From positions 1 to 64,000 of the forward strand of contig NZ_JAAOIV010000002.1 of NCBI RefSeq assembly GCF_011440275.1: 64,000 nucleotides of DNA. Direction: 5' to 3'. The notes under the pieces were generated by a model. The model made no database searches. It had not been told where the DNA came from and saw nothing but the letters and a program-made list of their open reading frames with translations. Origin of the DNA: Metallococcus carri. GTDB lineage: Bacteria > Actinomycetota > Actinomycetes > Actinomycetales > Dermatophilaceae. Numbering within the stretch: position 1 is the first letter of the stretch; every line of letters begins with the position of its first letter. A program made the position numbers and the translations under genes. This document shows positions 2,915 to 17,700 of the stretch, piece by piece.

Positions 2915-3742
2915 CTACCCGGATTCGTCAGCCCTAATCAGTCGGCACCCGGCCGGGGCCGGTTCGGCGGTCAGCTCTCGGCGCAGCTGCTCGAAGATGG
3001 CGGCGAGCAGCCGCGACACCTGCATCTGACTGGCCCCGATCTGCTGCCCGATCTCACGTTGGGTGAGGTTCTCGCCAAAGCGCAGCCGCAAGATCTCCCG
3101 CTCGTGGGTCTCGAGCCGGGCGACCGCGGGCTGCAGGAAGATGCGCAGCTCGACTCGGTTGAAGGCTTCCACCGCCGCTGAATCGGTCAGGGTGTCGCCG
3201 AGCGTGCCGGAGGTGTCGTCCGACACCGGCGCGTCCAAAGACACCCACCGATAGTGGCGATCGGCGTCCTCGGCTGCGCGTACGGCCACTGCCGACCGGC
3301 CGACGGCCGCAGCGGATTCGCCGGCGTCCGGCGCCCGGCCCAGGCGCTGCTCGAGCCCAGGGCGCGCCGCCCGCAGACTGAGCCGGGTCTCTTGCACCGC
3401 ACGCGGTGGCCGTACCGCCCAGCCGTGGTCACGGAAATATCGTTTGAGCTCACCGGAGATCGTCGGGATCGCGTAGGCGGCGAAGGCATAACCGGTTTCG
3501 GGACGGAACCGGTTGACGGCAAGAACGAGGCCGAGCAGGGCGACCTGCCGCAGATCGTCGGCTTCGACGCCACGGCCCTCGAACCGATGCGCCACCCGCA
3601 GCGCCATCGGCCGATGCATCAGCACAACGCGATCACGCAGCTCGGCCGCATCCGCAGGGTCGGTCGCCTGCGCCGTGCGCAACAACTGCAGCGTGCGGTC
3701 TTCGAGGTCGTCGGAGGTGGGAAGAGACGTCACCGTGCTCAT
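2915..3742 (-). CDS. RNA polymerase sigma factor, SigB/SigF/SigG type
   Basis: The 275-residue product has sigma-70 region 2 at about residues 40-110 (VEADDLRQVALLGLVLAV; FAAYAIPTISGELKRYFRD) and then the HGWAVRPPR motif that marks region 3 of the SigB/SigF stress and sporulation group. Region 4 lies near residues 225-265 (LTQREIGQQIGASQMQVSRL helix-turn-helix). Such factors are usually controlled by anti-sigma factors and direct general stress responses. No anti-sigma gene is adjacent. It heads a same-strand run (lipoprotein, transporter, PRC proteins) separated by only 9 bases, so it may drive its own operon. Confidence 0.88.
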   Translation of the reverse strand: MSTVTSLPTSDDLEDRTLQLLRTAQATDPADAAELRDRVVLMHRPMALRVAHRFEGRGVEADDLRQVALLGLVLAVNRFRPETGYAFAAYAIPTISGELKRYFRDHGWAVRPPRAVQETRLSLRAARPGLEQRLGRAPDAGESAAAVGRSAVAVRAAEDADRHYRWVSLDAPVSDDTSGTLGDTLTDSAAVEAFNRVELRIFLQPAVARLETHEREILRLRFGENLTQREIGQQIGASQMQVSRLLAAIFEQLRRELTAEPAPAGCRLIRADESG

Positions 3743-3949: not shown

Positions 3950-3966
3950 TCAGTCGCGCTCGAGAT
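3866..3966. repeat. Imperfect direct repeat, two copies of about 45 bp
   Basis: Both copies start with GGCCGTATGCCGGGGT (3866 and 3924) and continue with a G/C-rich spacer, then 'gagtcgcg.tcgag' or a close variant. The second copy runs past the SDR stop codon at 3950, so the C-terminal codons of that gene are part of the duplicated sequence. This looks like a local duplication. Confidence 0.5.
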
Positions 3967-4906
3967 TGCGCCGGGCCGCCCGCTCACCGAGCGCGGTGAG
4001 CCCGCGCAGCACGGACCGGCGGCGCCGGCTGAGGCCGGCCTCGACGCGAGCGCCGGAGGTCGTGCCGGTCGCTGCCAACTGTTGCTCGGAGGCCCGGGGG
4101 AGCAGCCGGGCGACCACGCCGAGCACCCGGGTGGTGAGGCCGGGAGCCAGACCGTTGACCCGGGCGCCGAGCTGCGCAAGCGGGGTGAAGGTGACGAAGG
4201 TGCGCCCTCGCTCGACCCCGTCGACGATCCGGCGGGCGGCGGTGTCGGCATCGATGGCCAGCAAGGGCGCGGACGCTCCGGCGGCGAACCACGCGTATTC
4301 GGCGTCGCGGTCACCGGCGAATTCGGCCGCCAGATGGGAGCCGACGCGCATCAGGCCAGGAGCGACCGTGGTGAGCGTGACGCCGGTGCCCGCGAGCTCG
4401 GAGGCGAGCCCCTGGCTGAAGCCGATGGCGCCGAATTTCGCTGTGCTGTAAGGCAACAGGTGTGGCGCCGACACCAGTCCGCCCACCGAGGAGACGATGC
4501 CGATCCGCCCGCGGCCGCGGGCCGTCATACGTCGGGCGAGCGGGAGCGCGAAGTGGATCGGCCCCCACAACATCGTGTCGATCGCGTCGGCGAACTGCTC
4601 GCGCTCCCAGCTCGACCACGGCCCGACCTGGATGACGCCCGCGACATGCAGGCCGAGATCGATCGGACCGACATCGCGCTCGACCCGGTCCAGATGGGCG
4701 GCCACCGCCGATGCGTCCCGCACGTCGCACTCCCAGGCGAGCACCGCATCGGGTGAGGCGCCCCGGCCGATGAGGTGGTCTCGCGCGCGGTCGCAGCGCG
4801 CTTGCGAGCGGGAGGAGATGACCACCCGGTAACCGCGTGCGAGCAGCTGCTGGGCGCACAGCAGCCCGAGCCCACGGGAGGCACCCAGCACGACGGCGAC
4901 GCTCAC
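3950..4906 (-). CDS. Short-chain dehydrogenase/reductase (SDR)
   Basis: The product is 318 residues, a classical SDR with a C-terminal extension of about 60 residues. It has the nucleotide motif GASRGLG at residues 8-14, the catalytic serine context IVSSVGG and the YSTAK active-site Tyr-Lys. It uses NAD(P)H on an unknown substrate. The tail after the core is Arg-rich (SRRRRSVLRGL) and may be a membrane-associated or regulatory part. GTG at 4906 was taken as start because it sits directly before SVAVVLGASRG. It overlaps the stop region of the upstream gene (4903), so the two are probably co-transcribed. Confidence 0.8.
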   Translation of the reverse strand: MSVAVVLGASRGLGLLCAQQLLARGYRVVISSRSQARCDRARDHLIGRGASPDAVLAWECDVRDASAVAAHLDRVERDVGPIDLGLHVAGVIQVGPWSSWEREQFADAIDTMLWGPIHFALPLARRMTARGRGRIGIVSSVGGLVSAPHLLPYSTAKFGAIGFSQGLASELAGTGVTLTTVAPGLMRVGSHLAAEFAGDRDAEYAWFAAGASAPLLAIDADTAARRIVDGVERGRTFVTFTPLAQLGARVNGLAPGLTTRVLGVVARLLPRASEQQLAATGTTSGARVEAGLSRRRRSVLRGLTALGERAARRNLERD

Positions 4907-5424
4907 GAAGACATCGCTCCGGGATAGCGCGGCAGAGCAGCGGCGGCACGGGCGTGCAGCGCATCGAGTCGATCGACCTGCTCGTCCGCGCGGTCGATCA
5001 GCCGGCGCAACTCCGCCTCGTCGAACCGGTCGTCACGCTCGGCGAAACCCAGCATCGCCAGCCATCCCTGGCGCTTGGAGCGCACCGCCATGACCAGCGC
5101 CTCGAGCTCGACCAGGTCGGTCAAGGCGGTGCGGCGGGTGAGCGAGCCATTCGGCTTGAGCCGGCCGAGGCGTTCGCCGGCGACCATGAGTTGCTGGCTC
5201 AGGGACGCCTGGCCCACACCGACCCGATCGGCGATCTCCCGCAGCACGGTGCGGTCTTGCCGGACCTGCTCGGCGAGTTCGGCGAGTTCGGCGCGGACCT
5301 GAGGGTCCGGCATACCGGAGGCAGCGCGGGCGAACATTTCGACGCCGCCGCGGGAGGCGACCCAGTGATGATGAACGTAGGTGCGGATCAAGGTGTTCGG
5401 GTCAACGGTTGCGTGGGTGGTCAT
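4903..5424 (-). CDS. Conserved helical protein of unknown function
   Basis: The product is 173 residues, almost entirely amphipathic helix, with charge-rich stretches (RAELAELAEQVRQDRTVL; LTDLVELEALVMAVRSKRQG; FDEAELRRLIDRADEQVD). The composition suggests a four-helix bundle of ferritin-like or DinB-like shape, but no metal-binding His/Glu pattern is evident. Similar proteins of about 170 residues are common in actinobacteria without a named function. A good ribosome-binding site (AAAGGACG, about 5393-5440 complement) precedes the ATG at 5424. The gene is divergent from the GAF-ANTAR regulator, with 177 bases between them that must hold both promoters. Confidence 0.65.
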   Translation of the reverse strand: MTTHATVDPNTLIRTYVHHHWVASRGGVEMFARAASGMPDPQVRAELAELAEQVRQDRTVLREIADRVGVGQASLSQQLMVAGERLGRLKPNGSLTRRTALTDLVELEALVMAVRSKRQGWLAMLGFAERDDRFDEAELRRLIDRADEQVDRLDALHARAAAALPRYPGAMSS

Positions 5425-5601
5425 GGTCGTCCTTTCGTCACGACCATCGTGTGTGTTCGCGCGGTGGTTTGGTCGGATCCGTCCGCGGGCCTCGGCGAAT
5501 CCACCCTTTCGTGGCGCGTGCGCGCGATGCACGGGTAGCTGGGAGCAGCTTTCATCAAGCTGGCAGACCATGATGAGGCGGAGAGCGAACGAGGAGGGGT
5601 G

Positions 5602-6291
5602 ATGGACGACAAGGCGCAGGCCGACGACATGGCGCAACTGGCGGAGCAGCTGCATGCCGCTGCCAGCCCGGCCGCCACGGCGGAGCAGGTCGTCCGCTAC
5701 GCCTGCCGGGAGCTCGAAGCCGACCATGGCGGGATCACCCTGGTCCGGCGCGGCAACACCCTGCAGACCATCGCCGCCACCGACCCGCTGGTCGTGCGGC
5801 TGGACCAGTTGCAGCAGGCCTTCGGCCGCGGGCCGTGCGAGGAGAGCGCGATCGAGCAGGAGACGATCTTCTCGGCCGACCTCGGCATCGACCGGCGCTG
5901 GGGCGACTGGGGTCCGGCCGCCGCGACGCTCGGCATCATCAGCGTGCTGGCCACCCGGTTGCGCGGCGTCGACGGTCGCGGCCTCGGCGCGCTCAACCTC
6001 TTCTGGACCCGGGCGCACGCCTTCGACTCCGAGGACATCGCCTTCGCCGCCCTCTTCTCCCGGCACGCGGCGGTCGCCCTGGAGGACGCGCAGATCCAAG
6101 AAGGGCTGCGCACCGCCCTCGACGCCCGCAAACGCATCGGCCAGGCCCAGGGGATCCTGATGGAGCGCTACCGGCTGGACCCGGAGCAGGCCTTCGAGGC
6201 GCTGCGCCGCTTCTCCCAGGAGCACAACCTCAAACTGCGCGCGGTCGCCGACCACCTGGTCACCCAGCGCAAGCTGCCGGCGGGTGACTGA
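5602..6291 (+). CDS. GAF-ANTAR antitermination regulator
   Basis: The product is 229 residues. Residues about 20-165 form a GAF domain (FGRGPCEESAIEQETIFSAD is a typical core). Residues 170-225 form an ANTAR domain (RKRIGQAQGILMERYRLDP; AFEALRRFSQEHNLKLRAVA). ANTAR proteins bind paired RNA hexaloops and prevent termination; the GAF part probably senses a ligand or redox state. The ATG at 5602 was chosen over the in-frame GTG at 5599 because GAGGAGG (5591-5597) is correctly spaced only for the ATG. The GT2 gene follows immediately. The RNA targets are not identifiable here. Confidence 0.85.
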   Translation: MDDKAQADDMAQLAEQLHAAASPAATAEQVVRYACRELEADHGGITLVRRGNTLQTIAATDPLVVRLDQLQQAFGRGPCEESAIEQETIFSADLGIDRRWGDWGPAAATLGIISVLATRLRGVDGRGLGALNLFWTRAHAFDSEDIAFAALFSRHAAVALEDAQIQEGLRTALDARKRIGQAQGILMERYRLDPEQAFEALRRFSQEHNLKLRAVADHLVTQRKLPAGD

Positions 6292-6292
6292 G

Positions 6293-7195
6293 ATGAGCCC
6301 GCCTTTGTCGGATCGCCTCACCGTGGTGCTGCTGACCTACAACTGCGGCGAGTGGATCGCCCGCACCGTCGACCACCTGCAACGCCTCGGCCTGCCGATG
6401 ATCGCCGTCGACAATGCCTCGCGTGATGACAACGTGGCCCAGCTGACCGCCGCCGGCGTCGAGGTGATGCGGCTGCCGCGCAATATCGGTGCGGCAGCCC
6501 GCAATGTGGGCGCGCGACGGGCGCGGACGCCATACCTCGCCTTCTGCGACGACGACGGCTGGTTCACCGGGGAGGGGCTCGACGCGGCGGTCGCGGCGCT
6601 CGACCGGCACCCGCGGCTCGCGCTGGTCAACGCCCGGATCCTCGTCGGCGAGGAGGAGCGGCTGGACCCGATCAGCGCCGAAATGGCGCAGTCGCCGTTG
6701 CCGGTGGGCGACCTGCCGGGGCTGCCGCTGCTCGGGTTCATGGCCGGCGCGGTGATCGTGCGCCGGTCGGCCTTCCTCGACGTGGGCGGGTATGACGAAC
6801 GCCTGTTCATCGGCGGCGAGGAGGAAACGCTGGCGGTGCCGCTGGCTGCGGCCGGATGGCAGCTGCGCTATCTGCCCGAGGTGGTGGTGCGGCATTTCCC
6901 GAGCACCGCCAATGCCGGACACATCCGGCATTTCGGGGTGCGCAACACCCTGGTCACGGCCTGGCGCCACCGCCCGGCGGCGCGCGCGGCATCGTGGACC
7001 TGGTTCATCCTGCGCACCACCCCGTCGCGGCGGGTCGCGGTGCGCGGCCTGGCGATGGCCGGGGCGATGCTGCCCTCGGTGTTGCGCGAGCGCCGGGTGA
7101 TCGATGCCGAGCTCGACCGCCAGCTCACGCTCCTCGAGCAGCGGCGGCGGCAGGCGACACCGACCCGCCGGCGCGCGGCGCATTCGGTGTGGTGA
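6293..7195 (+). CDS. Glycosyltransferase family 2
   Basis: The 300-residue product has a GT2 fold: VVLLTYNCGEWIARTVDHL near the N-terminus, AVDNASRDD, the nucleotide-sugar metal motif CDDDGWF at about residue 80, and a late GGYDERLFIGGEEETL that fits the catalytic-base region. It transfers a sugar from a nucleotide donor, presumably in the cytoplasm. ATG 6293 is preferred to GTG 6284 because GGCGGG sits 8 bases before it. The gene faces the GT9 gene and the two coding regions overlap tail to tail by 71 bases. Function in the neighbouring glycoconjugate locus is likely. Confidence 0.82.
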   Translation: MSPPLSDRLTVVLLTYNCGEWIARTVDHLQRLGLPMIAVDNASRDDNVAQLTAAGVEVMRLPRNIGAAARNVGARRARTPYLAFCDDDGWFTGEGLDAAVAALDRHPRLALVNARILVGEEERLDPISAEMAQSPLPVGDLPGLPLLGFMAGAVIVRRSAFLDVGGYDERLFIGGEEETLAVPLAAAGWQLRYLPEVVVRHFPSTANAGHIRHFGVRNTLVTAWRHRPAARAASWTWFILRTTPSRRVAVRGLAMAGAMLPSVLRERRVIDAELDRQLTLLEQRRRQATPTRRRAAHSVW

Positions 7196-8099
7196 ACCCC
7201 CGCGCGGCCGCCACGACCTCCTCCACGGTGACCGCGGCGATGCGCGGGTCGAGCCGGTCGGCATTGGGCAAGCCAGGACTCGGGATGTCGTCATGCCAGA
7301 TCACCAGATGGTGGTCCTGATCGATCCGCGGTCCCCAGACACTCGGAGAGATCGGGCCGAAGATCGCCACCGACGGCGTGCCCATCGCCAGCGCCAGATG
7401 GGCGATCCCGGTGTCGGTGCTGAGCACCAGACGCGCCGAGGCGACCTCGGCGGCGAGCGCCGGCAGGTCGAGGGCGCCAGTCAGGTCGGTCACCCGCGCC
7501 GACGCCTGCGCGACGGCTCGGCCGAGCTCGCGTTCGCCGGCTGAACCGGTGACATGCACGTCGGCCGGCAGGTGCTCGGCGACGGCGCGCCACCGCTCGA
7601 CCGGCCACTGCCGCGCCCGGGCCTTCGCCCCCGGATGTATGACGATGTGCTCACCTCGCGCGCGCTCCGGCACCGGGAGGCGCAGGTCGTCCACCGAGCA
7701 CGCGCCGCCATAGAACTCGATGAGCGAGCACCATTTGTCGACCTCGTGGGCGGCGGCATCCCAGATCGGCCCGTCGGTGAAATCCACTGGGGGACAAGCG
7801 AATCCGAACAGTCTGCGAGGGCGGAGTCTGCTGAGCAGAGTGTGGCTCTCCGGCCCGTTGCCGTGCAGGTCGACCGCGACATCGGGTGGTGGCCCCGTCC
7901 ACTCGAGCGGGCGGTCCAGGCCGGCGGTCGGCAGCACCGCGTCGATGATGGCGAGGTCGACCAGCCAGTCGCCCATCGCCGGCGGGCAGGCCAGGGTGAT
8001 GCGGTGCTCGGGCAGCAGGCGGCGCAGCCCACGCAGCGCGGGCACGCCGGTGAGCGTGTCGCCGAGTCCGAGCGCGCGCAGCACCAGCGCGTCAGGCAT
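7125..8099 (-). CDS. GT9-family (heptosyltransferase-like) glycosyltransferase
   Basis: The product is 324 residues. GT9 signatures are LRALGLGDTLTGVPALRGL at the N-terminus, VIHPGAKARARQWPVERW in the middle and STDTGIAHLALAMGTPSVAI near the C-terminus. GT9 enzymes such as WaaC/WaaF add heptose from ADP-heptose to LPS core in Gram-negatives; in actinobacteria the acceptor is unknown. It is the last gene of the minus-strand run starting at 16797 and overlaps the HldE-like gene by 8 bases. Its 3' 71 bases overlap the facing GT2 gene. Confidence 0.85.
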   Translation of the reverse strand: MPDALVLRALGLGDTLTGVPALRGLRRLLPEHRITLACPPAMGDWLVDLAIIDAVLPTAGLDRPLEWTGPPPDVAVDLHGNGPESHTLLSRLRPRRLFGFACPPVDFTDGPIWDAAAHEVDKWCSLIEFYGGACSVDDLRLPVPERARGEHIVIHPGAKARARQWPVERWRAVAEHLPADVHVTGSAGERELGRAVAQASARVTDLTGALDLPALAAEVASARLVLSTDTGIAHLALAMGTPSVAIFGPISPSVWGPRIDQDHHLVIWHDDIPSPGLPNADRLDPRIAAVTVEEVVAAARGFTTPNAPRAGGSVSPAAAAARGA

Positions 8100-9492
8100 C
8101 GGCCGCGGTCTCCAAGGCGGCGCGCCCGACGATGGTCTGCACCAGGCCGGTCGTGGACATCCCGGCCACGAAGGGCAGGATCACCACCTCGCCGCCCCAG
8201 CTGCGCACCAGGTCCGCTTCCGGCAGGGTCTCCGGGTCGTAGTCACCGCCCTTGGCCCAGATGTCGGGGCGCAGCGTGGCCAGCAGGCGGCACGGGTCGT
8301 CCTCGTCGAAGATCACGACCTCGTCAACGACATCGAGCGCCCGCAGCACGGCGGCGCGGTCGTCCTGGGTCTGCACCGGCCGGGTCGGCCCCTTGAGCCG
8401 GCGCACGGACCGGTCCGAGTTGAGCAATTCCACCAGCCGGTCACCGAGGCTGCGCGCCGCGCGCAGGGAGCCGATGTGGCCGGCGTGCAGTAGGTCGAAG
8501 CAGCCGCCGGTCGCCACGACCCGCTCGCCGGGCGTCCGCGGGAGGCCGGCCGAGTCGAGCACGCCAGCCGAGTCGCCCATCGGACCGACGCGGCCAGATC
8601 GCTGCCGGAAGCCGGTCGTCCCATTGCCCCGCACCCACTCCGCGGCGTCGGCAGCGGCCCGGTGCACGGCGGCATACAGGGTGTGGCCGGTGGCCAGGCT
8701 GCGGGTCAGGCTGGCCGCGAAACTGTCACCCGCCCCACAGGTGTCGCGGTCGCGCACGTCCGGCACCGGAACGCGCGTCAGCGGGTGTCCGGCGCGGGCG
8801 AGCAGCGCGCCGTCAGCACCCCGAGTCACGCAGACCGCCTCGGCCGACCACTGTGCCCGGAGTGCCTCGGGAAGGTGGGTCGTCGGCCGTTCTATCGGCG
8901 AAAAGTGTTGGGCCTCACCGAGATTCGGCGTGACCACCGCACAACCGGGCAAGGGTGTCGTGCCCCGGGGATGAGGATCCCAGACGATCGGCGCACGACC
9001 ATCGCGCGCCGTTCGCGCGAGCAACTCGCGCAGCCCCGCGTGGCTGGTCGTGCCGGCGCCGTAGTCCGAGACCAGGATGGCGTTCGCCTCCCGTAGCAAT
9101 GCCCCCACCGCGTCGGGCGGGGCTCCGGGCGGTGGCGTCCCGGGGCCACCTTCGTCATACCGCGTGATGACCCGGTCGCCGGCGCGCAACCGTGTCTTGG
9201 TGCGGGTGCCGCCGAGATGCGGCAGGGCGGTCAGGCCGACACCCGCGTCACTCAGCGCGGCGCGCAGCTGCTCACCCCGGGCGTCGGCGGCCAGCGGGGC
9301 AATGAGGTGGACATCGGTGTCGGGTGCGACGGCGAGCAGCGCCGCGAGCCCGGCACCGCCGGGACCCTGGACCGAGCGTTCGACGTCGAGCACGGGTGCG
9401 GGCGCGTCCGGGCACTCGCGCTCGACCCGCCCGTCGACATCGCGATCGAGCACCAGGTCACCGACCACGACGATGCGAGCCCGCCGGGTCAT
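8092..9492 (-). CDS. HldE-like bifunctional sugar kinase / nucleotidyltransferase
   Basis: The 466-residue product has an N-terminal PfkB/ribokinase domain (VVVGDLVLDRDV at residue 8; SVQGPGGAGLAALL; active-site DTCGAGDSFAASL near 255). It is followed by a cytidylyltransferase-fold domain (GGCFDLLHAGHIGSLRAAR near 335; WAKGGDYDPETLPE; STTGLVQTIVGRA at the end). This two-domain order matches HldE/RfaE, which phosphorylates heptose-7-phosphate at C1 and later adenylylates heptose-1-phosphate to ADP-heptose. It sits between two glycosyltransferases with 4-8 base overlaps. A GmhB-like phosphatase, the step between the two HldE reactions, is encoded 3 kb upstream; GmhA is not in the window. Confidence 0.85.
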   Translation of the reverse strand: MTRRARIVVVGDLVLDRDVDGRVERECPDAPAPVLDVERSVQGPGGAGLAALLAVAPDTDVHLIAPLAADARGEQLRAALSDAGVGLTALPHLGGTRTKTRLRAGDRVITRYDEGGPGTPPPGAPPDAVGALLREANAILVSDYGAGTTSHAGLRELLARTARDGRAPIVWDPHPRGTTPLPGCAVVTPNLGEAQHFSPIERPTTHLPEALRAQWSAEAVCVTRGADGALLARAGHPLTRVPVPDVRDRDTCGAGDSFAASLTRSLATGHTLYAAVHRAAADAAEWVRGNGTTGFRQRSGRVGPMGDSAGVLDSAGLPRTPGERVVATGGCFDLLHAGHIGSLRAARSLGDRLVELLNSDRSVRRLKGPTRPVQTQDDRAAVLRALDVVDEVVIFDEDDPCRLLATLRPDIWAKGGDYDPETLPEADLVRSWGGEVVILPFVAGMSTTGLVQTIVGRAALETAADA

Positions 9493-10706
9493 GCCGGCAC
9501 CTCCACCGCGCGCCGGCCGCGGACGACGCCGAGCAGGCTCGCCTCGGTGCGCTCGGCGACGCGTTCCCAGCCGTAGCGGGTCACCGCGCGGGCACGGGCG
9601 GTGCGGCCCCAATCGGCAAGAGTCTCAGGGCAATCCAGCATCTCGGCGATGGCGGAGGCGAGTGCGCGCGGGTCTCGTTCCGGCACGAGGCGACCGGTCT
9701 GGCCGTCGACCACGGTGTCGAGCAGACCGCCCACCGCCGAGCCGACCACGGCCTTGCCGCAGGCGGCCGCCTCCAGCGGCGTGATGCCGAAGGGTTCGTA
9801 CCACGGTGTGGCCAGGACAAGGTCGGCGCTGCGGTAGAGCTCCGGCATACGCTCGTGGGCGACCTGACCGGTGAAGAGCACGCGATCGCCGACGCCGAGA
9901 GCGTCGGCGAGTTCCCGCAGGCGGCGGGCCTCGGCATCCTGGTCGAGCTCTGCTCGTGGCGGACCGCCGGCGATGGTGAGCTCGGTGTGCGGCAACGCAA
10001 CCAGCGCGCGAACCGCGGTGTCCAGGCCTTTGCGCGGCACCAGCCGCCCGACGCTGAGCAGCTTGGCCGGGGAGCGGGGCGGGCGCGGAGCAGCGGCGGG
10101 GGAGAAGAGCATGGTGTCGACGCCGCAGGGCACCACCGCGATCCGGTCGGCGGGTGCGCCCAGGCGGGTGAGTTCGGCTGCCTCGTCGGAGCAGGTCGCG
10201 ATGATCAGATCGGCGGTGCTCGCCAGGCGCCGCTCGAGCTCCAGCCGTTGCGGTGGGCTGGTGTCGGCCAAACCCTGGTGGCGACGCTTGACCACGCCGA
10301 GGGCGTGGAAGGTGATCGCCCAGGGGATGCCCGGCAGGGCACACGCCTGCGCCGCGGCCAGCCCGGACATCCAAAAGTGCGCGTGCACGACATCGGGGGT
10401 CCCGGTGCGGGCCCAGTCCTCGCTGAGCCAGTCGCCGAAGGCGCCCATGAAGGGCAACAGCTCGTCCTTGGGGATCGCGCGCGCCGGTCCGGCGGGGACG
10501 TGCACCACCTCGACGCCGTCATTGAGCGCCACCCGCTCCGGCTGCTGCGACTCGGGCTGGTCGCGCCGGGTGTAGACCCGCACCTCGTGACCGCGCCGGG
10601 CCAGCTGCGTCGCCAGGGCGGCGACGTGGACATTCTGGCCGCCCGCGTCCACCCCACCGAGCGCGGCGAGCGGACTGGCGTGTTCGGACACCATTGCGAT
10701 CTTCAT
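9489..10706 (-). CDS. GT4-type glycosyltransferase
   Basis: The 405-residue protein has GT-B architecture. The N-terminal part has the GGVDAGGQNVHVAALA loop typical of MshA/sucrose-synthase-like GT4 enzymes and VHAHFWMSGLAA. The C-terminal part has SVGRLVPRKGLDTAV and the E-x7-E motif in YEPFGITPLEAAACGKAVV. It retains the sugar configuration of its nucleotide donor. Start 10706 overlaps the stop of the upstream gene by 4 bases (ATGA). It belongs to the same polycistronic run as the HldE-like gene; donor and acceptor are unknown. Confidence 0.85.
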   Translation of the reverse strand: MKIAMVSEHASPLAALGGVDAGGQNVHVAALATQLARRGHEVRVYTRRDQPESQQPERVALNDGVEVVHVPAGPARAIPKDELLPFMGAFGDWLSEDWARTGTPDVVHAHFWMSGLAAAQACALPGIPWAITFHALGVVKRRHQGLADTSPPQRLELERRLASTADLIIATCSDEAAELTRLGAPADRIAVVPCGVDTMLFSPAAAPRPPRSPAKLLSVGRLVPRKGLDTAVRALVALPHTELTIAGGPPRAELDQDAEARRLRELADALGVGDRVLFTGQVAHERMPELYRSADLVLATPWYEPFGITPLEAAACGKAVVGSAVGGLLDTVVDGQTGRLVPERDPRALASAIAEMLDCPETLADWGRTARARAVTRYGWERVAERTEASLLGVVRGRRAVEVPA

Positions 10707-11686
10707 CGGGCCATCTCCTTCAACAATGCGTCCCAGTCGGTCAGGAAACGCTCGAGTCCGTAGTGGCGCAGGGCGTGCGCGCGACCCACCGCGCCGGCCG
10801 CGCGGGCCGCGTCCGGGTCGGCCAGCCAGATCCGGGCTTGGTCGCGCAGGCGATCGAGGTCGTTGGTCACCAGACCGGCGCCGGGCGGGACCGCCGTCGG
10901 TGCCTCGGTGGTCGCCAGGGCGAGCACCGGCAGGCCGATGAGCATCGCCTCGATGAGGGACAGTCCGAGGCTGGTCCACCGGGGTGTGTGCAGATAAGCC
11001 CGGTGATCGGCCAGCGCCGCGTGCATCGCCGCTTGCGGCAGGTCGTCGTGCAACCGTTCGGCAAGTTGCGGTATGCCGTGAGCTCTCGCGTGGTCGCCCA
11101 ATGGGGCCATCGCCATGCCGTAGACATGCACGGGCAACTCGCGGGCGACGGCGACCAGCAGGTCGGTGCCGACCGTGCGCCAGCGCCGCATCGGCTCGTT
11201 GACCACGACCGCGAGGCTGCGGTCCCGGCCGGTGTAGGCGATGCCCGGATCGGCGACGCCGTGCTCGATCACCTCCACCTGGCGGTCGCCGTTGTCCCAC
11301 GCCATCGCGTTGAACCAGGTGACATGCACGATCGGGATGCGGGCGGTAGCGGGATCGGCGGCGATCGGGTGCACCGTCGTCACCGCTGGGCCGTCGGGGG
11401 CATTGTGTTCGACGTAGACCGCCGGCAGGTCACGCCCGGGGCGCCGGCCGGTCCACTTCGCACACCACTGCACCTCCTCGGGGCGTTGCAGCACAACGAG
11501 ATCCAGCTCTTCGGACCGCAACTGGTCGATCGGCACCTCGCGGACTCGGTCCGGCCAGGTCCAGGTCCGTGCGCGGCCCCGACCCTCGGGTCCACGGCCT
11601 GGTGCGAGGGGCAGCACGACGTCGTGAGCGCCGGCGACGAAGGAGGTCGTCCAGGACCCGTGGACATGCCACATCAGGATGCGCAT
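10703..11686 (-). CDS. Glycosyltransferase, GT4-like
   Basis: The product is 327 residues, GT-B type, with a recognisable C-terminal half (HTPRWTSLGLSLIEAMLIGL, the E-containing donor-binding motif, and LATTEAPTAVPPGAGLVTN). The N-terminal half is less typical, with MRILMWHVHGSW and a VYVEHNAPDGP loop. The start at 11686 was chosen at MRILMWHVHG, where the conserved beta strand begins. This overlaps the upstream GT9 gene by 13 bases. Specificity is unknown. Confidence 0.78.
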   Translation of the reverse strand: MRILMWHVHGSWTTSFVAGAHDVVLPLAPGRGPEGRGRARTWTWPDRVREVPIDQLRSEELDLVVLQRPEEVQWCAKWTGRRPGRDLPAVYVEHNAPDGPAVTTVHPIAADPATARIPIVHVTWFNAMAWDNGDRQVEVIEHGVADPGIAYTGRDRSLAVVVNEPMRRWRTVGTDLLVAVARELPVHVYGMAMAPLGDHARAHGIPQLAERLHDDLPQAAMHAALADHRAYLHTPRWTSLGLSLIEAMLIGLPVLALATTEAPTAVPPGAGLVTNDLDRLRDQARIWLADPDAARAAGAVGRAHALRHYGLERFLTDWDALLKEMAR

Positions 11687-12717
11687 GCGGCCTCCGATCG
11701 GGCGGTCAGCTGCTGGATCGCTGCGAGCACCTCGCCCGCGGTCACCGAGGACACGCAGGGGTGGCCCGGGACGGGGCAGGTGCGGGCCCGGCTCAATGCG
11801 CAAGCAGCGGTCTGATCGCCGAGCAGCACGTGCGGCACACCCCAGGGCGCCCACCGCGCCGCGGGCACGACAGGGGAAAAGACGCTGACGACCGGCGTGC
11901 CGACCGCCGCCGCGAGATGTGCCGGTCCGGTGTTACCCACCACGACCACGGCCGCGCCGCGCAGCACGGACGCCAGCGTGGGCAGGTCGGTGGATCCGCT
12001 CAGATCGGTGACGCCTGGGCAGCGTCGCCAAGGTGCGGTCTCGGCGGGCGAGCCGGTCAGCAGCACGTGCCAGCCGTCCTGAGCGAGGGCGGCGATCGTC
12101 TCGGCGACCAGGGTGGGCGGGAGCGCCCTGGTCGGGGCGGTGGAGCCGGGGTGGATCACGGCATACCGGCCGGGCGGCAGCTCGATGGGAGCGGTGGACC
12201 GGATGGCCAGCCGTCGGTCGTCACCCTCCGGGAGCGCGAATCCGGCGGCAGCGGCGAGGTCGAGCGCGGCCTCGACCTCGTGCCCACCCTCCGGCCCACC
12301 GTCGTCGTCGCGGCCGTCGGCAGAGCGTCGATGCCGGACGTCGAGCAGGCTCCCGGGGTGAATGTCACTCGTGCCGGCGATGAACGGTATGTCGGCCATC
12401 CGGCATACCAGCGCTGCGGGCAACGGGCTCTGGTGGTAGGACGTGAAGATCACCGCGGCGGCATACACGCGGCGGCGGAGCCCTTGGATGAGATGCTCGA
12501 TGGCCGCCGGATCTGCCTGTGGCGCAACGATTCCCGACCAGGGCACGGCATGGGTGATGACGTCGTCGACCCCAGGCAACAGGGCCGCCGCAGCGGCACC
12601 CTCCGGAGCGACCAGCAGGTCCACGTTGTCAGCATGTGCCGCGAGCGCGCGGATCGCCGCCCCGGTGAGCAGGACGTCGCCCAGGCTGTCGGTGCGGACC
12701 GCCAGCACCCGGTTCAC
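11674..12717 (-). CDS. GT9-family (heptosyltransferase-like) glycosyltransferase
   Basis: The 347-residue product starts LAVRTDSLGDVLLTGAAIRA, has YAVIHPGSTAPTRALPPTL in the middle and VVGNTGPAHLAAAVGTPVV towards the end, all GT9 hallmarks. It is the second GT9 of this operon and is clearly diverged from the one at 7125-8099, so the two probably make successive linkages. A Cys-rich tail (CALSRARTCPVPGHPCVSS) resembles the C-terminus of Gram-negative heptosyltransferases. It overlaps the GT2-phosphatase gene by 4 bases. Confidence 0.85.
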   Translation of the reverse strand: MNRVLAVRTDSLGDVLLTGAAIRALAAHADNVDLLVAPEGAAAAALLPGVDDVITHAVPWSGIVAPQADPAAIEHLIQGLRRRVYAAAVIFTSYHQSPLPAALVCRMADIPFIAGTSDIHPGSLLDVRHRRSADGRDDDGGPEGGHEVEAALDLAAAAGFALPEGDDRRLAIRSTAPIELPPGRYAVIHPGSTAPTRALPPTLVAETIAALAQDGWHVLLTGSPAETAPWRRCPGVTDLSGSTDLPTLASVLRGAAVVVVGNTGPAHLAAAVGTPVVSVFSPVVPAARWAPWGVPHVLLGDQTAACALSRARTCPVPGHPCVSSVTAGEVLAAIQQLTARSEAACAS

Positions 12718-14240
12718 GGCGCACCGCCGTGCAGGATGAGGTCGACCGCAGCGGGCAGGTCGTCGGCGCGAGCGGGTGCCGCGGCGATCTCGACCGGCAG
12801 GGTGTGCTCGGTGGGCACAAGGACGCTGCGGGCCCCGGCGCGCAGCGCAGCGGTGACATCGCTGCCGATATCGCCGACGACGGTCAAGGCGCTCGGCGGC
12901 AGACCCAGCTCGGCGGCGGCGCGCCGGACCATGCCCGGCTCAGGCTTGCGGCACGCGCAGCCCTCCTCCGGGGTGTGCACGCACACCTGCCAGGTGTCGA
13001 ACGGACCGAGCAACTCCTCGACCCGCGCGTTGACAGCATCCATCTGTGCCCGGGTGATGTCACCGGCGCCGACGGCCGACTGATTCGAGACGACACCGAC
13101 GCGAATCCCCTTGTCGCGCAGGCGAGTCACGGCTTCACGGGCACCGGGGGTGGGCTCGACGAGCGAGGGATCGGTGTTCAACGGGACATCCCGGATCAGC
13201 GTGCCGTCCCGGTCGAAGAGCACCGCGCGCGGCGCCCGTGGCCAGGGCGGAGTCGAGCGATAGCGCCATTCGCCACGCAGCCGGTGGAAGACCGCCGCCG
13301 GGGGGATCACCGCGCTGGTGGCGGTCATCACCGCGACCTCGCGGAGGGTGCGTGACCCGGGGGCGATGCGCTTGGCGGCGAAGGCAGCTGTGGAGAGCAG
13401 ACCCGCGGTCGCGGCGGTGAGCGGGACCGCCCGGCGCACGGGCACACCCAGGCCACGCACCACCGCCGTCAGGTCGGCGAGTGCGTAGGCGGCCACTGTG
13501 GCGACATGCCAGGCGAAGGCACCCCTGGTCTCCCGGGCCGCGTGGCGCCAGCCGACGCCGTGCAGCCGGCGCATCAGGGCATCGTCGGCGTTGCCGCGCT
13601 GCATCGAAACGCTCACCCACGGGCCGGCGGGGCGGACCGGATGCAGCACCCGGCGGCGCCCGCGGTCGAGCTGCCAGCCGTTCTGCTGCAACCGCAAGGC
13701 CAGATCGGCATCCTCGCGGAACGCTCGCCGGAAGCGCTCGTCGAAGCCCGCGACCTCCTCAAGTGCCTGGCGGCGCACGGCGAGGTCGGCGGTGATCCAC
13801 CAGGCGCCTTCGAGCCCGGCGGTGTTGCGCTCCCAATCGGTCGGCTTACGGTCGGTCGGCAACGGCACCGTGACCCGTCCCTGGCTGCCGGCCAGGGTGG
13901 CCGGTGCCGCCCGCAGGTCGGAGGCCAGCTGGTCGCTCCAGCCGTCGGTGACCAGCACGTCGTCGTCGAGGAAGACGACCCACTCGGTGTCGGTGACCCG
14001 CCAGCCGAGATTGCGCGCTGCCGCCGGACCGCGACCCCAGGACCGCAGCCGGGTGACGGGCACCCCGCCGACCGTCGCCGGCAGCTCGACATCGGGCACC
14101 GGCTCGCCACGATCGTCGACCACCACGATCCGGTCGGCCTCCAGCCGCCGTTGCCGCGCCAGCGCGTTGAGCAGGTCCCGCAGGCTCGCTCGCCCCACCG
14201 TCGGGATGACGATGCTGTATGCCGGTGCGCTGTCGGTCAC
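12714..14240 (-). CDS. GT2 glycosyltransferase fused to GmhB-like HAD phosphatase
   Basis: The 508-residue fusion has residues 8-230 as a GT2 domain (SIVIPTVGRASLRDLL; VVFLDDDVLVTDGW; FREDADLALRLQQNGWQLDR). A hydrophobic linker near 260-310 follows. From about 340 a HAD-IIIA domain carries LFDRDGTLI, VVSNQSAVGAG, the zinc loop CVHTPEEGCACRKPEPGM and VVGDIGSDV. The Cys-x-His...Cys-x-Cys zinc loop is diagnostic of GmhB, which removes the C7 phosphate of heptose-1,7-bisphosphate between the two HldE steps. Fusing it to a glycosyltransferase ties precursor synthesis to sugar transfer. Both gene ends overlap neighbours by 4 bases. Confidence 0.85.
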   Translation of the reverse strand: MTDSAPAYSIVIPTVGRASLRDLLNALARQRRLEADRIVVVDDRGEPVPDVELPATVGGVPVTRLRSWGRGPAAARNLGWRVTDTEWVVFLDDDVLVTDGWSDQLASDLRAAPATLAGSQGRVTVPLPTDRKPTDWERNTAGLEGAWWITADLAVRRQALEEVAGFDERFRRAFREDADLALRLQQNGWQLDRGRRRVLHPVRPAGPWVSVSMQRGNADDALMRRLHGVGWRHAARETRGAFAWHVATVAAYALADLTAVVRGLGVPVRRAVPLTAATAGLLSTAAFAAKRIAPGSRTLREVAVMTATSAVIPPAAVFHRLRGEWRYRSTPPWPRAPRAVLFDRDGTLIRDVPLNTDPSLVEPTPGAREAVTRLRDKGIRVGVVSNQSAVGAGDITRAQMDAVNARVEELLGPFDTWQVCVHTPEEGCACRKPEPGMVRRAAAELGLPPSALTVVGDIGSDVTAALRAGARSVLVPTEHTLPVEIAAAPARADDLPAAVDLILHGGAP

Positions 14241-15913
14241 GATCGGACCTCCTCGGCGAGCAGGTCACTGCGCCGCACCAGGTGGGGGCCGAGCACGAGG
14301 ACATCCACCGGCGTCGACCCGAGGATCTCCAGCGCCTCCCGCGGGGTGTCGACCATCGGCCGGCCGGCGGTGTTGAGGCTGGTGTTGACGAGCACCGGCA
14401 GGCCGGTGAGCTCGGCGAACTCGCTCAGCACCGCGGCGATGCGCGGCTGCCCGGCCGGGTCGACGGTCTGCACCCGCGCCGTGCCGTCGACATGCGTGAC
14501 GGCCGGGATGCGCTTGCGCCAGTCGGGGGCGACGTCGTGCACGAAGAGCATGTAGGGGCTCGGCAGCGGCCCTCGGCCGAAGATCTCCGCGGCGCGGTCG
14601 ACGAGCACCATCGGGGCCACCGGCCGGAACTGCTCGCGGCCCTTGATGTCGTTGAGCCGCTGCAGGTTGGCCGCCTCGCCGGGGTGGGCCAGCAGCGATC
14701 GTTGGCCGAGAGCGCGCGGCCCGAACTCGCTGCGCCCGTCATACCAGGCGATGACGCCGTTGCCGGCGAGAATCGCAGCGACCTGCTCGGCCAGATCGGC
14801 GGGCGTGGTGAAGGGCAGGCGGGCGCGCCGCAGTTCGCTCGCGAGCTCCTCGTCGTTCCACCCGCGGCCCAGTGCGGCGGTGGGGAAGGGAGCCGGCGTC
14901 ACCAGGTCGCCCTCGCTCGCGGTGAGGTGGAGCGCCGCGCCGAGGGCGGTGCCCGCGTCGCCGGCGGCCGGCTGAACCCACACGCTCCGGAACGGACCCT
15001 CGGCGAAGATGCGAGTGTTCGCAACGCAATTCAGCGCTGTGCCGCCCGCCATCACCAATCGGTCGTCGCCGGTTTCGCCGTGCAGCCAGACGGCCAGCTC
15101 GAGCAGCGTGTCCTCCAGGCAGCGCTGCACCGAGGCGGCGAGGTCGGCATGCGGAGCGCTCCAGTCCTCATCGTCCGGCTCGCGCGGCGGCGCCCACTGG
15201 GACCAGTCCGGCGCCTGGGCGCGGAAGCCGCCCGCACCGGTCGCGTGGACGTGCTGGCCGATCTCGTTTGCCCACCGGGGAGTGCCGTAGGACGCGAGCG
15301 CCATCACCTTGTATTCGTCGCTGGAGCGCAGGAAGCCGAGATGCTCGGTCAGCGACTCGTAGACCAGCCCGAGCGAATCAGGCAGGGCCTGAGTCGCCAG
15401 CACCTCCACCCTGCCGTCCGGCGCGTAGTGTCCGGCCAGGTGGGAGGCCTGCTCCCCACGACCGTCGACCACGAGGACACTGCAACCCCCGGTCGAGCCG
15501 TCCGGGTCGACCAGGCCGGCCGACCCGGCGTGCGCCAGGTGATGCGGCACGAAGCGGACCCGGTCCACAGCAAGGCCGGGCAGCGCGGTGGAGATGAAGC
15601 CGGGTGACTCCTCGGCATACATCCGGCGTAGGTGATCCCACGGATCGTCGAGCCCGAGGTCCTCGGCCGGCCGCGCGAGGGCGGGGTCGAAGGAGTAGGC
15701 GACCGCGTCCAGCTCGGCGGCCTGGAGACCTGCCTCCTCGAGACACCAGCGCATGGCCTGCTCGGGCAGCTCCCAGGCCGAGAACGGCACGGGACGCTTG
15801 CCGTGCTTGCGGCGGCTGAAGCGTTCCTCCTCCGCGCACGCGACGATCTCGCCGTCGACGACGAGCGCGGCGGCGGGATCGTGGAAGAGGGCGTTGACCC
15901 CGAGGACGTTCAT
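14237..15913 (-). CDS. Carbamoyltransferase, NodU/CmcH family
   Basis: The 558-residue product is full length for the family. The N-terminal ASKHA-like domain starts VLGVNALFHDPAAALVVDG and has EEERFSRRKHGKRPVP and HHLAHAGSAG. The C-terminal YrdC-like part includes RSEFGPRALGQRSLLAHPG, GREQFRPVAPMVL and VLVNTSLNTAGRPMVDTP. These enzymes make carbamoyl-AMP from carbamoyl phosphate and ATP and transfer the carbamoyl group to a sugar hydroxyl. In this operon the likely substrate is a sugar of the glycoconjugate. The gene starts 2 bases after the upstream SDR stop. Confidence 0.9.
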   Translation of the reverse strand: MNVLGVNALFHDPAAALVVDGEIVACAEEERFSRRKHGKRPVPFSAWELPEQAMRWCLEEAGLQAAELDAVAYSFDPALARPAEDLGLDDPWDHLRRMYAEESPGFISTALPGLAVDRVRFVPHHLAHAGSAGLVDPDGSTGGCSVLVVDGRGEQASHLAGHYAPDGRVEVLATQALPDSLGLVYESLTEHLGFLRSSDEYKVMALASYGTPRWANEIGQHVHATGAGGFRAQAPDWSQWAPPREPDDEDWSAPHADLAASVQRCLEDTLLELAVWLHGETGDDRLVMAGGTALNCVANTRIFAEGPFRSVWVQPAAGDAGTALGAALHLTASEGDLVTPAPFPTAALGRGWNDEELASELRRARLPFTTPADLAEQVAAILAGNGVIAWYDGRSEFGPRALGQRSLLAHPGEAANLQRLNDIKGREQFRPVAPMVLVDRAAEIFGRGPLPSPYMLFVHDVAPDWRKRIPAVTHVDGTARVQTVDPAGQPRIAAVLSEFAELTGLPVLVNTSLNTAGRPMVDTPREALEILGSTPVDVLVLGPHLVRRSDLLAEEVRS

Positions 15914-15915
15914 CC

Positions 15916-16797
15916 TCAGAAGACCGGCTTGCCGCCGGTGACGCCCAGGACGGTGCCGGACACATAGGACGCCTCGGTCGGCGAGGCAAGGAAGACGAAG
16001 GCCGAGGCGCATTCGGCCGGCTGACCGGCGCGTCCGAGCGGCGTATCGGTGCCGAACGACTCGATCTTGTCCGGCTCCTGGGTGGCCGGTTGCAAGGGCG
16101 TCCAGATCGGGCCGGGTGCCACGGCGTTGACCCGGATCCCCGCTTCGCCGAGCTCGGCGGCCAGGTTGACGGTGAGGTTGTTGAGCGCGGCCTTGGTGGC
16201 GGCGTAGTCGAGCAGTGAGGTCGAGGGCTGGAAGGCCTGCACGGAGCTGACGTTGATGACGCTGGACCCCTTGCTGAGATGGGGCAGCGCCGCCTGGACG
16301 AGCAGCAGCGGGGCGTAGAGATTGGTCTTGAAGATCCGGTCGATGCGCTCCAGGCCCATGTCGGCCAGCCCGTCGTCGCGCGCCATCTGCACGCCGGCGT
16401 TGTTGACCAGGATGTCCAGGCCACCGAGCCCCTCGACCGCGTCGGCGATCAAGGTCTGGCAAGCCTGCGGGTCGGTGAGATCGGTGGGGCAGAGCACGGC
16501 CGTGCGGCCGGCCTTGCGGATCCACTCGGCGGTGTCCTGGGCGTCCTGGTCCTCGTCGGGCAGGTAAGCGATCGCGACATCGGCTCCCTCCCGGGCGAAG
16601 GCGATCGCGACGGCGCGGCCGATGCCGGAGTCGCCGCCGGTGATCAGCGCGCGCAACCCGTGAAGACGGGCGTTGCCGCGGTAGCTCTCCTCGCCGTGGT
16701 CAGGCACCGGGTCCATCTGCTGGGTGGCGCCGGGCAGGGTCTGCTCCTGGCGGGGAAAGCCGTCCTTGAGAGCGTCATAGTCACCGGGCTGGGGCAT
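15916..16797 (-). CDS. SDR oxidoreductase, YhdF/YghA-like
   Basis: The product is 293 residues with an N-terminal extension of about 45 residues before the Rossmann core (ALITGGDSGIGRAVAIAFA), then NNAGVQ, NVSSVQ and YAATKAAL. The extension rich in Pro/Gln/Asp with GATQQMDPVPDHGE is typical of the general-stress SDR group (B. subtilis YhdF/YdaD, E. coli YghA) and is not seen in the HldD epimerase family. It uses NAD(P)H on unknown substrates. It heads the minus-strand glycoconjugate run, but its family suggests it may be a stress gene sharing the promoter. Confidence 0.82.
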   Translation of the reverse strand: MPQPGDYDALKDGFPRQEQTLPGATQQMDPVPDHGEESYRGNARLHGLRALITGGDSGIGRAVAIAFAREGADVAIAYLPDEDQDAQDTAEWIRKAGRTAVLCPTDLTDPQACQTLIADAVEGLGGLDILVNNAGVQMARDDGLADMGLERIDRIFKTNLYAPLLLVQAALPHLSKGSSVINVSSVQAFQPSTSLLDYAATKAALNNLTVNLAAELGEAGIRVNAVAPGPIWTPLQPATQEPDKIESFGTDTPLGRAGQPAECASAFVFLASPTEASYVSGTVLGVTGGKPVF

Positions 16798-16923
16798 CGG
16801 GTCCTCCTCGATCGGGTGTGGGCTTTACCTAGCCCTTACCCCGCTCGAGGGCGGCTAAACGCGATCCGGCCCAAACCACCGGTAGGGGTGGGGGCCCGCT
16901 GTGCCGGCGCTTGACCGGCGCAC

Positions 16924-17634
16924 TCACCGGCGTGCGCGCCGGTAGAGCGCCGCCGGGCGGCCGCGCAGGCCCGCCGCGGTGACGACCTCGCCGCGTCGGG
17001 TGACCGGGGTGAGGAAGGGCTTCATCCGCCGGTTGAAGTTGTCCTTGTGCAGTTCGGCGCCGACGACGGCCTCGTGCACCTTGCGCAGCTGATGCAGGGT
17101 GAACGGCTCGGGGAGGAAGTGGTCGGGGTCGGGCCGTGCGTCGTCGAATTCTGAATAGCGGTAACGGAATTCGTAGCGTGACCGCAGGTCGGCGACCGCC
17201 GCGGCGACGATGTCGTCGTGGTCGAACAGCAGCGGCTCGTGACCCCGCAGGCGGCCATCGTCGCCCACCGCCGCCAACTCGCCGACAGCTCCGGTCAGCG
17301 CCGCCTCGGTCACCGACAGGGAGTGCGCCGCCGAGATCGTCCACGTGCGCGAGTCGCGCGCGGGGTCGTCATACAGCTGCAGGAGGCGAGGGGTGGGCAG
17401 GCGGTCGGGGGAGATGGCGACCTTGCGGGTCAGCACGTCGCGCACGGTGTCGGCGACGGTATGCCGCTCGCGGATGAACGCCCCCGGAAGGGCCCGGCCG
17501 GTCGGGTCGGAGCGGTCCTGGATGAGCACCCGCAACGAGGGGGCACTGTCGGTGGTGCCGACTATCGTCAGCAGTGCCAGGTCGACAGTGACACCGGGGC
17601 GGGGGAACTCTTCCAGATCGGTCGCTGGGGACAT
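16924..17634 (-). CDS. NrtR-like Nudix-related transcriptional regulator
   Basis: The product is 236 residues. Residues about 15-150 are Nudix-like (VDLALLTIVG; ALPGAFIRERHTVADTVRDV), but the Nudix box lacks the REx2EE catalytic glutamates, so hydrolysis is unlikely. Residues 170-236 form the winged helix typical of NrtR (FTLHQLRKVHEAVVGAELHK; NFNRRMKPFLTPV). NrtR proteins repress NAD-metabolism genes and are released by ADP-ribose. The gene is divergent from an ADP-ribosylglycohydrolase operon, and a tandem palindrome lies between them at 17645-17688, which supports autoregulation and control of that operon. Confidence 0.8.
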   Translation of the reverse strand: MSPATDLEEFPRPGVTVDLALLTIVGTTDSAPSLRVLIQDRSDPTGRALPGAFIRERHTVADTVRDVLTRKVAISPDRLPTPRLLQLYDDPARDSRTWTISAAHSLSVTEAALTGAVGELAAVGDDGRLRGHEPLLFDHDDIVAAAVADLRSRYEFRYRYSEFDDARPDPDHFLPEPFTLHQLRKVHEAVVGAELHKDNFNRRMKPFLTPVTRRGEVVTAAGLRGRPAALYRRARR

Positions 17635-17644
17635 GGCGTAGACA

Positions 17645-17688
17645 TTAGCGCGAACAGCGTGCTAATAATAGCTAGGACAGAGTGCTAA
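17645..17688. promoter_or_regulatory. Tandem imperfect palindromes, probable NrtR-like operator
   Basis: Two 21-bp copies lie at 17645-17665 and 17668-17688. They match at 16 of 21 positions and are offset by 23 bp, about two helical turns. The first is a near-perfect dyad TTAGC...GCTAA; the second keeps GAGTGCTAA on its right arm. They fill most of the 66-base gap between the divergent Nudix-like regulator and the TY-Chap gene, and the second abuts the ribosome-binding site AAAGGAGG (17687-17694). Position, dyad symmetry and repetition support an operator. Confidence 0.65.
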
Positions 17689-17700
17689 AGGAGGTTCGTC

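Follow-up and report, generated by a model that had tools for sequence, protein, structure and literature searches.

A conserved actinobacterial locus for a possible carbamoylated heptose/xylose glycan of the general stress response

Introduction

One of the closest described systems to the locus reported here is the ADP-heptose pathway of Gram-negative lipopolysaccharide (LPS), with its enzymes GmhA, HldE, GmhB and HldD. The locus, which is from the actinobacterium Metallococcus carri, has the same enzyme domains up to ADP-D,D-heptose and two GT9 enzymes, but its genome holds no HldD match over cut-off, its GmhB-like domain is carried on a GT2 glycosyltransferase, and its gmhA lies in another cluster. 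Nearer by phylum are the tridomain NDP-heptose synthetases of actinobacteria that Tang et al. reportedly described in 2022. Compared by title only, these recall the GmhA-HldE fusions, in frame, of 7 of the best 80 loci among at least 566 relatives, whereas the M. carri protein is of two domains, with no GmhA domain in its chain and none adjoining it. The synthesis of NDP-heptoses in actinobacteria is, then, already published.

Carbamoylated heptose is found in the LPS core of Pseudomonas aeruginosa, which contains 7-O-carbamoyl-heptose and is built by GT9-type heptosyltransferases (PMC7168646); the context there is LPS, which it is not here, and the comparison is with the published description of that core. 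The GDP-D,D-heptose pathway (HddA, GmhA and GmhB; M. tuberculosis GmhA, PMC7705670) also has a counterpart in M. carri, hddA-gmhA-gmhB at C12:317 kb, but this is a separate cluster, and the locus itself has an HldE-type enzyme and not HddA. A further likeness is to the mycobacterial SigF regulon, whose published promoter consensus, GTTT-N(15-17)-GGGTA (PMC7390352), is the form of a site in the DNA analysed here. The heptose locus was not found in papers on that regulon (PMC4694148, PMC7693655, PMC7390352), and a literature search for heptose with carbamoylation in actinobacteria returned no relevant paper. Nor was the combination of heptose enzymes, carbamoylation, a UDP-xylose branch and general-stress control found in the literature searched, in which the tridomain-synthetase paper was covered by its title only. 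The stress regulation of the locus is the new element here.

The locus and its genes

The window, i.e., the whole stretch of DNA that was analysed, is 64,000 nucleotides of M. carri (GCF_011440275.1, contig NZ_JAAOIV010000002.1, positions 1-64,000). A preliminary description had listed two GT9 enzymes, an HldE-like protein, a GmhB-like/GT2 fusion, two GT4 enzymes, an extra GT2 and a carbamoyltransferase, and the reading frames and Pfam domains bore out every one of these in its place:

2915..3742, minus strand: SigB/SigF/SigG-family sigma factor (TIGR02980 SigBFG the best model, 215.6 bits, cut-off 234)
6284..7195, plus strand: further GT2 (PF00535, 66.9 bits)
7125..8099, minus strand: GT9b, heptosyltransferase-type (PF01075, 78 bits, cut-off 22)
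8092..9492, minus strand: predicted HldE-like heptose-7-phosphate kinase / heptose-1-phosphate nucleotidyltransferase (TIGR02199, 181.6 vs 181.5 bits)
9489..10706, minus strand: GT4b, MshA-like (PF00534/PF13439 over cut-off; TIGR03449 239 vs 462.5, below the MshA cut-off)
10703..11686, minus strand: GT4a, GT4-type glycosyltransferase (PF13524 over cut-off)
11674..12717, minus strand: GT9a, heptosyltransferase-type (PF01075, 67 bits, cut-off 22)
12714..14240, minus strand: GT2 fused to a GmhB-like HAD phosphatase, the HAD part at about 13229-12810 (PF00535 and HAD-IIIA TIGR01662 over cut-off)
14237..15913, minus strand: O-carbamoyltransferase, NodU/TobZ family (PF02543 and PF16861 over cut-off)
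15916..16797, minus strand: SDR oxidoreductase, probable operon leader (PF13561, 203 bits; NF004782/NF005214 below cut-off)
16837..16860, minus strand: putative SigF/SigB-type promoter, GTTT-N15-GGGTA (exact motif match)

From the carbamoyltransferase to GT9b the genes run head to tail, with successive overlaps of 4, 4, 13, 4, 4 and 8 bases. The tight packing of 2-13 bases that had been given for the whole set held for this minus-strand run (4-13 bases) and failed for the further GT2, which lies on the plus strand outside the run and converges on GT9b with a 71-base tail-to-tail overlap. GC3 coding bias was high in all genes of the run and their Pfam domains scored above cut-off, which excludes a chance origin of the frames. 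The SDR gene at 16797-15916 ends 2 bases ahead of the carbamoyltransferase and is probably the operon start, one gene ahead of that enzyme; as a member of the conserved core it was rejected, having matches, mostly distant, in 14 of the 80 best loci (of at least 566).

Between the sigma factor and the locus, at 4903-5406 (minus strand) and 5599-6291 (plus strand), lie a GAF-ANTAR regulator and a small protein without a Pfam match; the GAF/ANTAR gene and an SDR at 3950-4906 were dismissed as conserved partners, being too rare among the loci of relatives. An NrtR-type regulator (16924-17700, winged-helix PF21906) is transcribed divergently from a series of genes that reaches an ADP-ribosylglycohydrolase-like gene (18644-20089); the inverted repeat TTAGC-N11-GCTAA lies between the regulator and this series.

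Heptose activation and transfer

Heptose activation and transfer, the central proposal of the preliminary description, continued to be the best reading of these genes. The nucleotidyltransferase domain of the HldE-like protein passed the model for heptose-1-phosphate adenylyltransferase, TIGR02199, if marginally (181.6 bits against a curated cut-off of 181.5), and the proteins of five relatives scored 169-183 bits on it; the nearest solved chain to the kinase domain was the heptose-7-P kinase 4e84 (73.6 bits, the next at 34); and gmhA lies by hldE in 80/80 of the best relatives (of at least 566). The kinase domain fell well under its equivalog cut-off (TIGR02198, 124 vs 345 bits), as did the protein on the full-length HldE model (265.5, cut-off 521). 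The GAGD, HAGH and STT motifs were all present, and the STTR5 region, a motif linked to the use of several NTPs (PMC11573728), read FVAGMSTT, with Met for the Arg of most relatives; this Met would predict that the protein favours ATP over CTP/UTP more than do relatives with Arg. The protein is thus predicted to work in the HldE manner, yet by score it is outside the HldE equivalog. The HAD domain of the GT2 fusion scored 93 bits on the GmhB model (cut-off 178), and its nearest solved chain was 4pnh, a D,D-heptose 1,7-bisphosphate phosphatase. The 6-epimerase HldD is required for L,D-heptose only. The window has no HldD-type epimerase, as had been noted, and none was over cut-off in the whole genome (best match 100.8 vs 274.6 bits), where the candidates were generic epimerases only.

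The genome has no GT9 genes (PF01075) other than these two. On the equivalog models for LPS heptosyltransferases I, II and III they scored 34-66 bits, short of cut-offs of 135-185, and the nearest solved chains to GT9b were those of WaaC (6dfe/2gt1). As the kinase, GmhB and GT9 equivalog cut-offs were all missed, some doubt attaches to the roles of HldE, GmhB and GT9. The carbamoyltransferase has both Pfam domains and the active-site motifs (PHHLAHA, GGTALN and GPRALG) of the NodU/TobZ family, and its nearest solved chains were the carbamoyltransferase 7xb6, TobZ and GdmN.

Conservation across Actinomycetota

The locus is not an oddity of one organism: at least 566 confirmed stretches came from a scan across bacteria and archaea, and the best 80 of these, which were used for gene counts, were all actinobacterial. 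Within these 80 (of at least 566), HldE and GmhA were each found in 80, GT9a and GT4b in 74, the short SDR in 73, GT4a and the HAD domain in 72, GT9b in 69, the carbamoyltransferase in 40 and GT2 in 38, i.e., a recurring core of HAD, GT9a, GT4a, GT4b, GmhA, HldE, SDR and GT9b; carbamoyltransferase and GT2 each occur in about half of the loci. An even sample of the phylum gave the HldE-like protein (E <=1e-50) in 36 of 296 genomes, in loci of mostly the same content. Fusions among the best 80 (of at least 566), namely GT2-HAD in 29, HAD-GT9a in 16, GmhA-HldE in 7 and GT4b-GmhA in 3, tie heptose activation to the glycosyltransferases. Relatives of the further GT2 occurred in 19 of the best 80 loci (of at least 566), and also in L133 and L136, adjoining UXS and the locus there.

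UXS (UDP-glucuronate decarboxylase) was inside the retrieved stretch in 29, and UDP-glucose dehydrogenase in about 19, of the best 80 loci (of at least 566); in relatives UXS adjoins GT9b or is a few kilobases off. Of 7 other locus-bearing genomes tested, 6 had the UXS ortholog in single copy, and 3 genomes without the locus lacked it.

Two variations in layout may be recorded. The GmhB-like HAD is joined to GT9a and not to GT2 in several Micromonosporaceae loci, L055, L056, L072, L078 and L103 among them. A second, more distant HldE-like gene (kinase part 29-41% identity) lies downstream of the locus in L048, L059, L061, L065, L070 and L119, from the genera Arthrobacter, Amnibacterium and Curtobacterium.

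Genes lost from the M. carri copy

The window copy has no gmhA, short SDR or UXS, of which the first is present in 80/80 and the second in 73/80 of the best relatives (of at least 566). GmhA had been reported as outside the window, and a search of the genome located one GmhA-type isomerase, the single SIS_2 match, at C12:317257-317622, 300 kb off; its motifs, HIAAELVGK and TPRIQEVHLLWGH, are intact and align with those of phosphoheptose isomerases. The UXS ortholog, also single copy, is next to this gmhA in a cluster with the order hddA-gmhA-gmhB-pgfA-UXS, in which hddA scored 278 bits on the HddA model (cut-off 600). The short SDR is lost, not relocated, the best matches in the genome being ordinary SDRs of 26-41% identity, and its lack may mean a changed or incomplete product from this copy. 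In two genomes of another family gmhA is likewise missing from the locus, with SIS_2 genes retained elsewhere. This copy of the cluster has lost one of its heptose genes, which a gene far from it probably replaces.

Stress control

Across both strands of the window, GTTT-N14-17-GGGTA had one exact match (0.15 expected), with a spacer of N15, and this sole SigF-type site lies 39 bases ahead of the first gene of the operon. Of 20 locus-bearing genomes, 8, from six families, have a sigma gene of SigB/SigF type no more than 10 kb from hldE, where about 0.6 (0.56) would be expected (P about 1e-7 with genomes taken as independent, 4e-6 by family). The motif was sought up to 130 bases upstream of 293 cluster genes, from 106 related loci, that had no other cluster gene close ahead of them. 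It stood ahead of 23 of the 293, with a spacer of 15 or 16 in 22 of these 23; the 80 permuted motifs averaged 0.9, and the real motif ranked top. The mycobacterial locus carries it at several separate transcription units, including those of GT4a, UXS and the divergent GT2.

The strict motif was missing from the operon leaders of 82 of 95 relatives, including Micromonospora and most operons led by the carbamoyltransferase, so the support for stress control extends to part of the family only. For the window and that part of the relatives, the promoter motif before the operon and its recurrence before homologous operons predict membership of a SigB/SigF regulon, and the locus is apparently switched on by a general stress sigma factor. 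A search ahead of the hddA-gmhA-gmhB-UXS cluster found no strict SigF motif. A separate recurrent site, GTTTCGCCCGG-N-GGGTA, was seen 8-10 kb upstream of hldE in L045, L051, L107, L108, L112 and L153, mostly Micromonospora.

Proposed product and alternatives

Our preferred reading, which we think somewhat better than evenly founded, is that the enzymes of the locus assemble, within the cytoplasm and under the SigB/SigF general stress response, an oligosaccharide conjugate that contains heptose and is carbamoylated. It builds on the gene content, the conservation, the relocated gmhA and UXS, the promoter motif and the association with sigma genes, and from these sequence observations we infer each enzyme activity, the list of sugars, the acceptor and the location. 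In this pathway GmhA, from 300 kb away, would convert sedoheptulose-7-phosphate to heptose-7-phosphate, the HldE-like protein would phosphorylate it at C1, the GmhB domain on the GT2 fusion would remove the 7-phosphate, and the HldE-like protein would complete ADP-D,D-heptose. The two GT9 enzymes would transfer the heptose, the GT4/GT2 enzymes would add other sugars, and the NodU-type enzyme would carbamoylate the product. Xylose is a likely addition: among relatives the locus includes UXS, and often UDP-glucose dehydrogenase, and the supply of UDP-xylose appears to form part of the pathway; the presence of UXS in the retrieved stretch of 29 of the best 80 loci (of at least 566) makes the sugar uncertain. 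More tentatively, with a confidence just short of even, we propose that a general-stress carbamoylated heptose/xylose glycan, assembled through ADP-heptose and UDP-xylose, is a widespread and undescribed actinobacterial product, for which some lineages would draw their heptose on a GmhA encoded elsewhere, here in the hddA-type cluster.

The preliminary description had foreseen a surface or secreted glycan, and in such a case the locus could serve a constitutive glycan of the cell surface or cell wall that acts like an LPS inner core, stress control being incidental. The combination of GT9, HldE, GmhB and carbamoyltransferase does resemble the Pseudomonas LPS core set with its 7-O-carbamoyl heptose (PMC7168646), and five glycosyltransferases fit an oligosaccharide, but the loci of relatives show no recurring gene for a membrane protein, exporter, flippase, polymerase or ligase, hydropathy gave no convincing transmembrane segment in the locus proteins, and general-stress promoters and sigma genes do recur. 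We consider this glycan unlikely; its surface location or secretion is conjectural, as the locus holds no export, flippase or ligase gene. The heptose in that interpretation is still the best reading, and the UDP-xylose branch, the lost gmhA, SDR and UXS, and the stress control were not part of it. The absence of an exporter from the locus sits well with a soluble glycoside or oligosaccharide kept inside the cell as a guard against osmotic or drying stress, as do the general-stress association and a salt-tolerant Frankia in which one GT9 annotated as a heptosyltransferase, of this locus or of another, is salt-induced (PMC5563000). Five or six glycosyltransferases and a carbamoyltransferase would, however, be costly for a compatible solute, and we find this rather improbable.

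That the window holds a decaying copy, whose product is no longer made after the loss of gmhA, SDR and UXS, is a reading to which those losses and the Met in the HldE motif lend some weight. It is decidedly improbable, we believe, as the remaining frames are all open, the overlaps tight and the catalytic motifs retained, a full GmhA and UXS are kept elsewhere in the genome, and other loci also lack the SDR or gmhA. We would be greatly surprised by a heptose-bearing secondary metabolite like those of the septacidin and hygromycin B clusters: streptomycetes do derive the heptose of septacidin by the ADP-heptose pathway (PMC10948575), and O-carbamoyltransferases are common in antibiotics, but here the same gene order is conserved across many families, polyketide, peptide and resistance genes were not seen recurring nearby, and control is of the general-stress kind.

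The preferred reading, a stress-induced heptose conjugate, gives the ADP-heptose enzymes of Gram-positive actinobacteria a testable role. If the stress link is true, Mycobacterium, Nocardia, Amycolatopsis and others would have heptose glycans in their general stress response, and the link would also tell when such bacteria make NDP-heptoses, a timing that matters because NDP-heptoses trigger ALPK1 immunity. The wider roles of NDP-heptose enzymes in their producers have been described as open (PMC11573728).

The hddA-gmhA-gmhB-pgfA-UXS run was met in L008 (10531-14822) and L041 (M. carri genome, C12:304-340 kb), and is, on its gene content, a second heptose-related envelope cluster. It lies beside GT2/GT4 genes and acyltransferases, and adjoins very large membrane-type proteins of 1255 and 1371 aa, which we take to be AftD-like.
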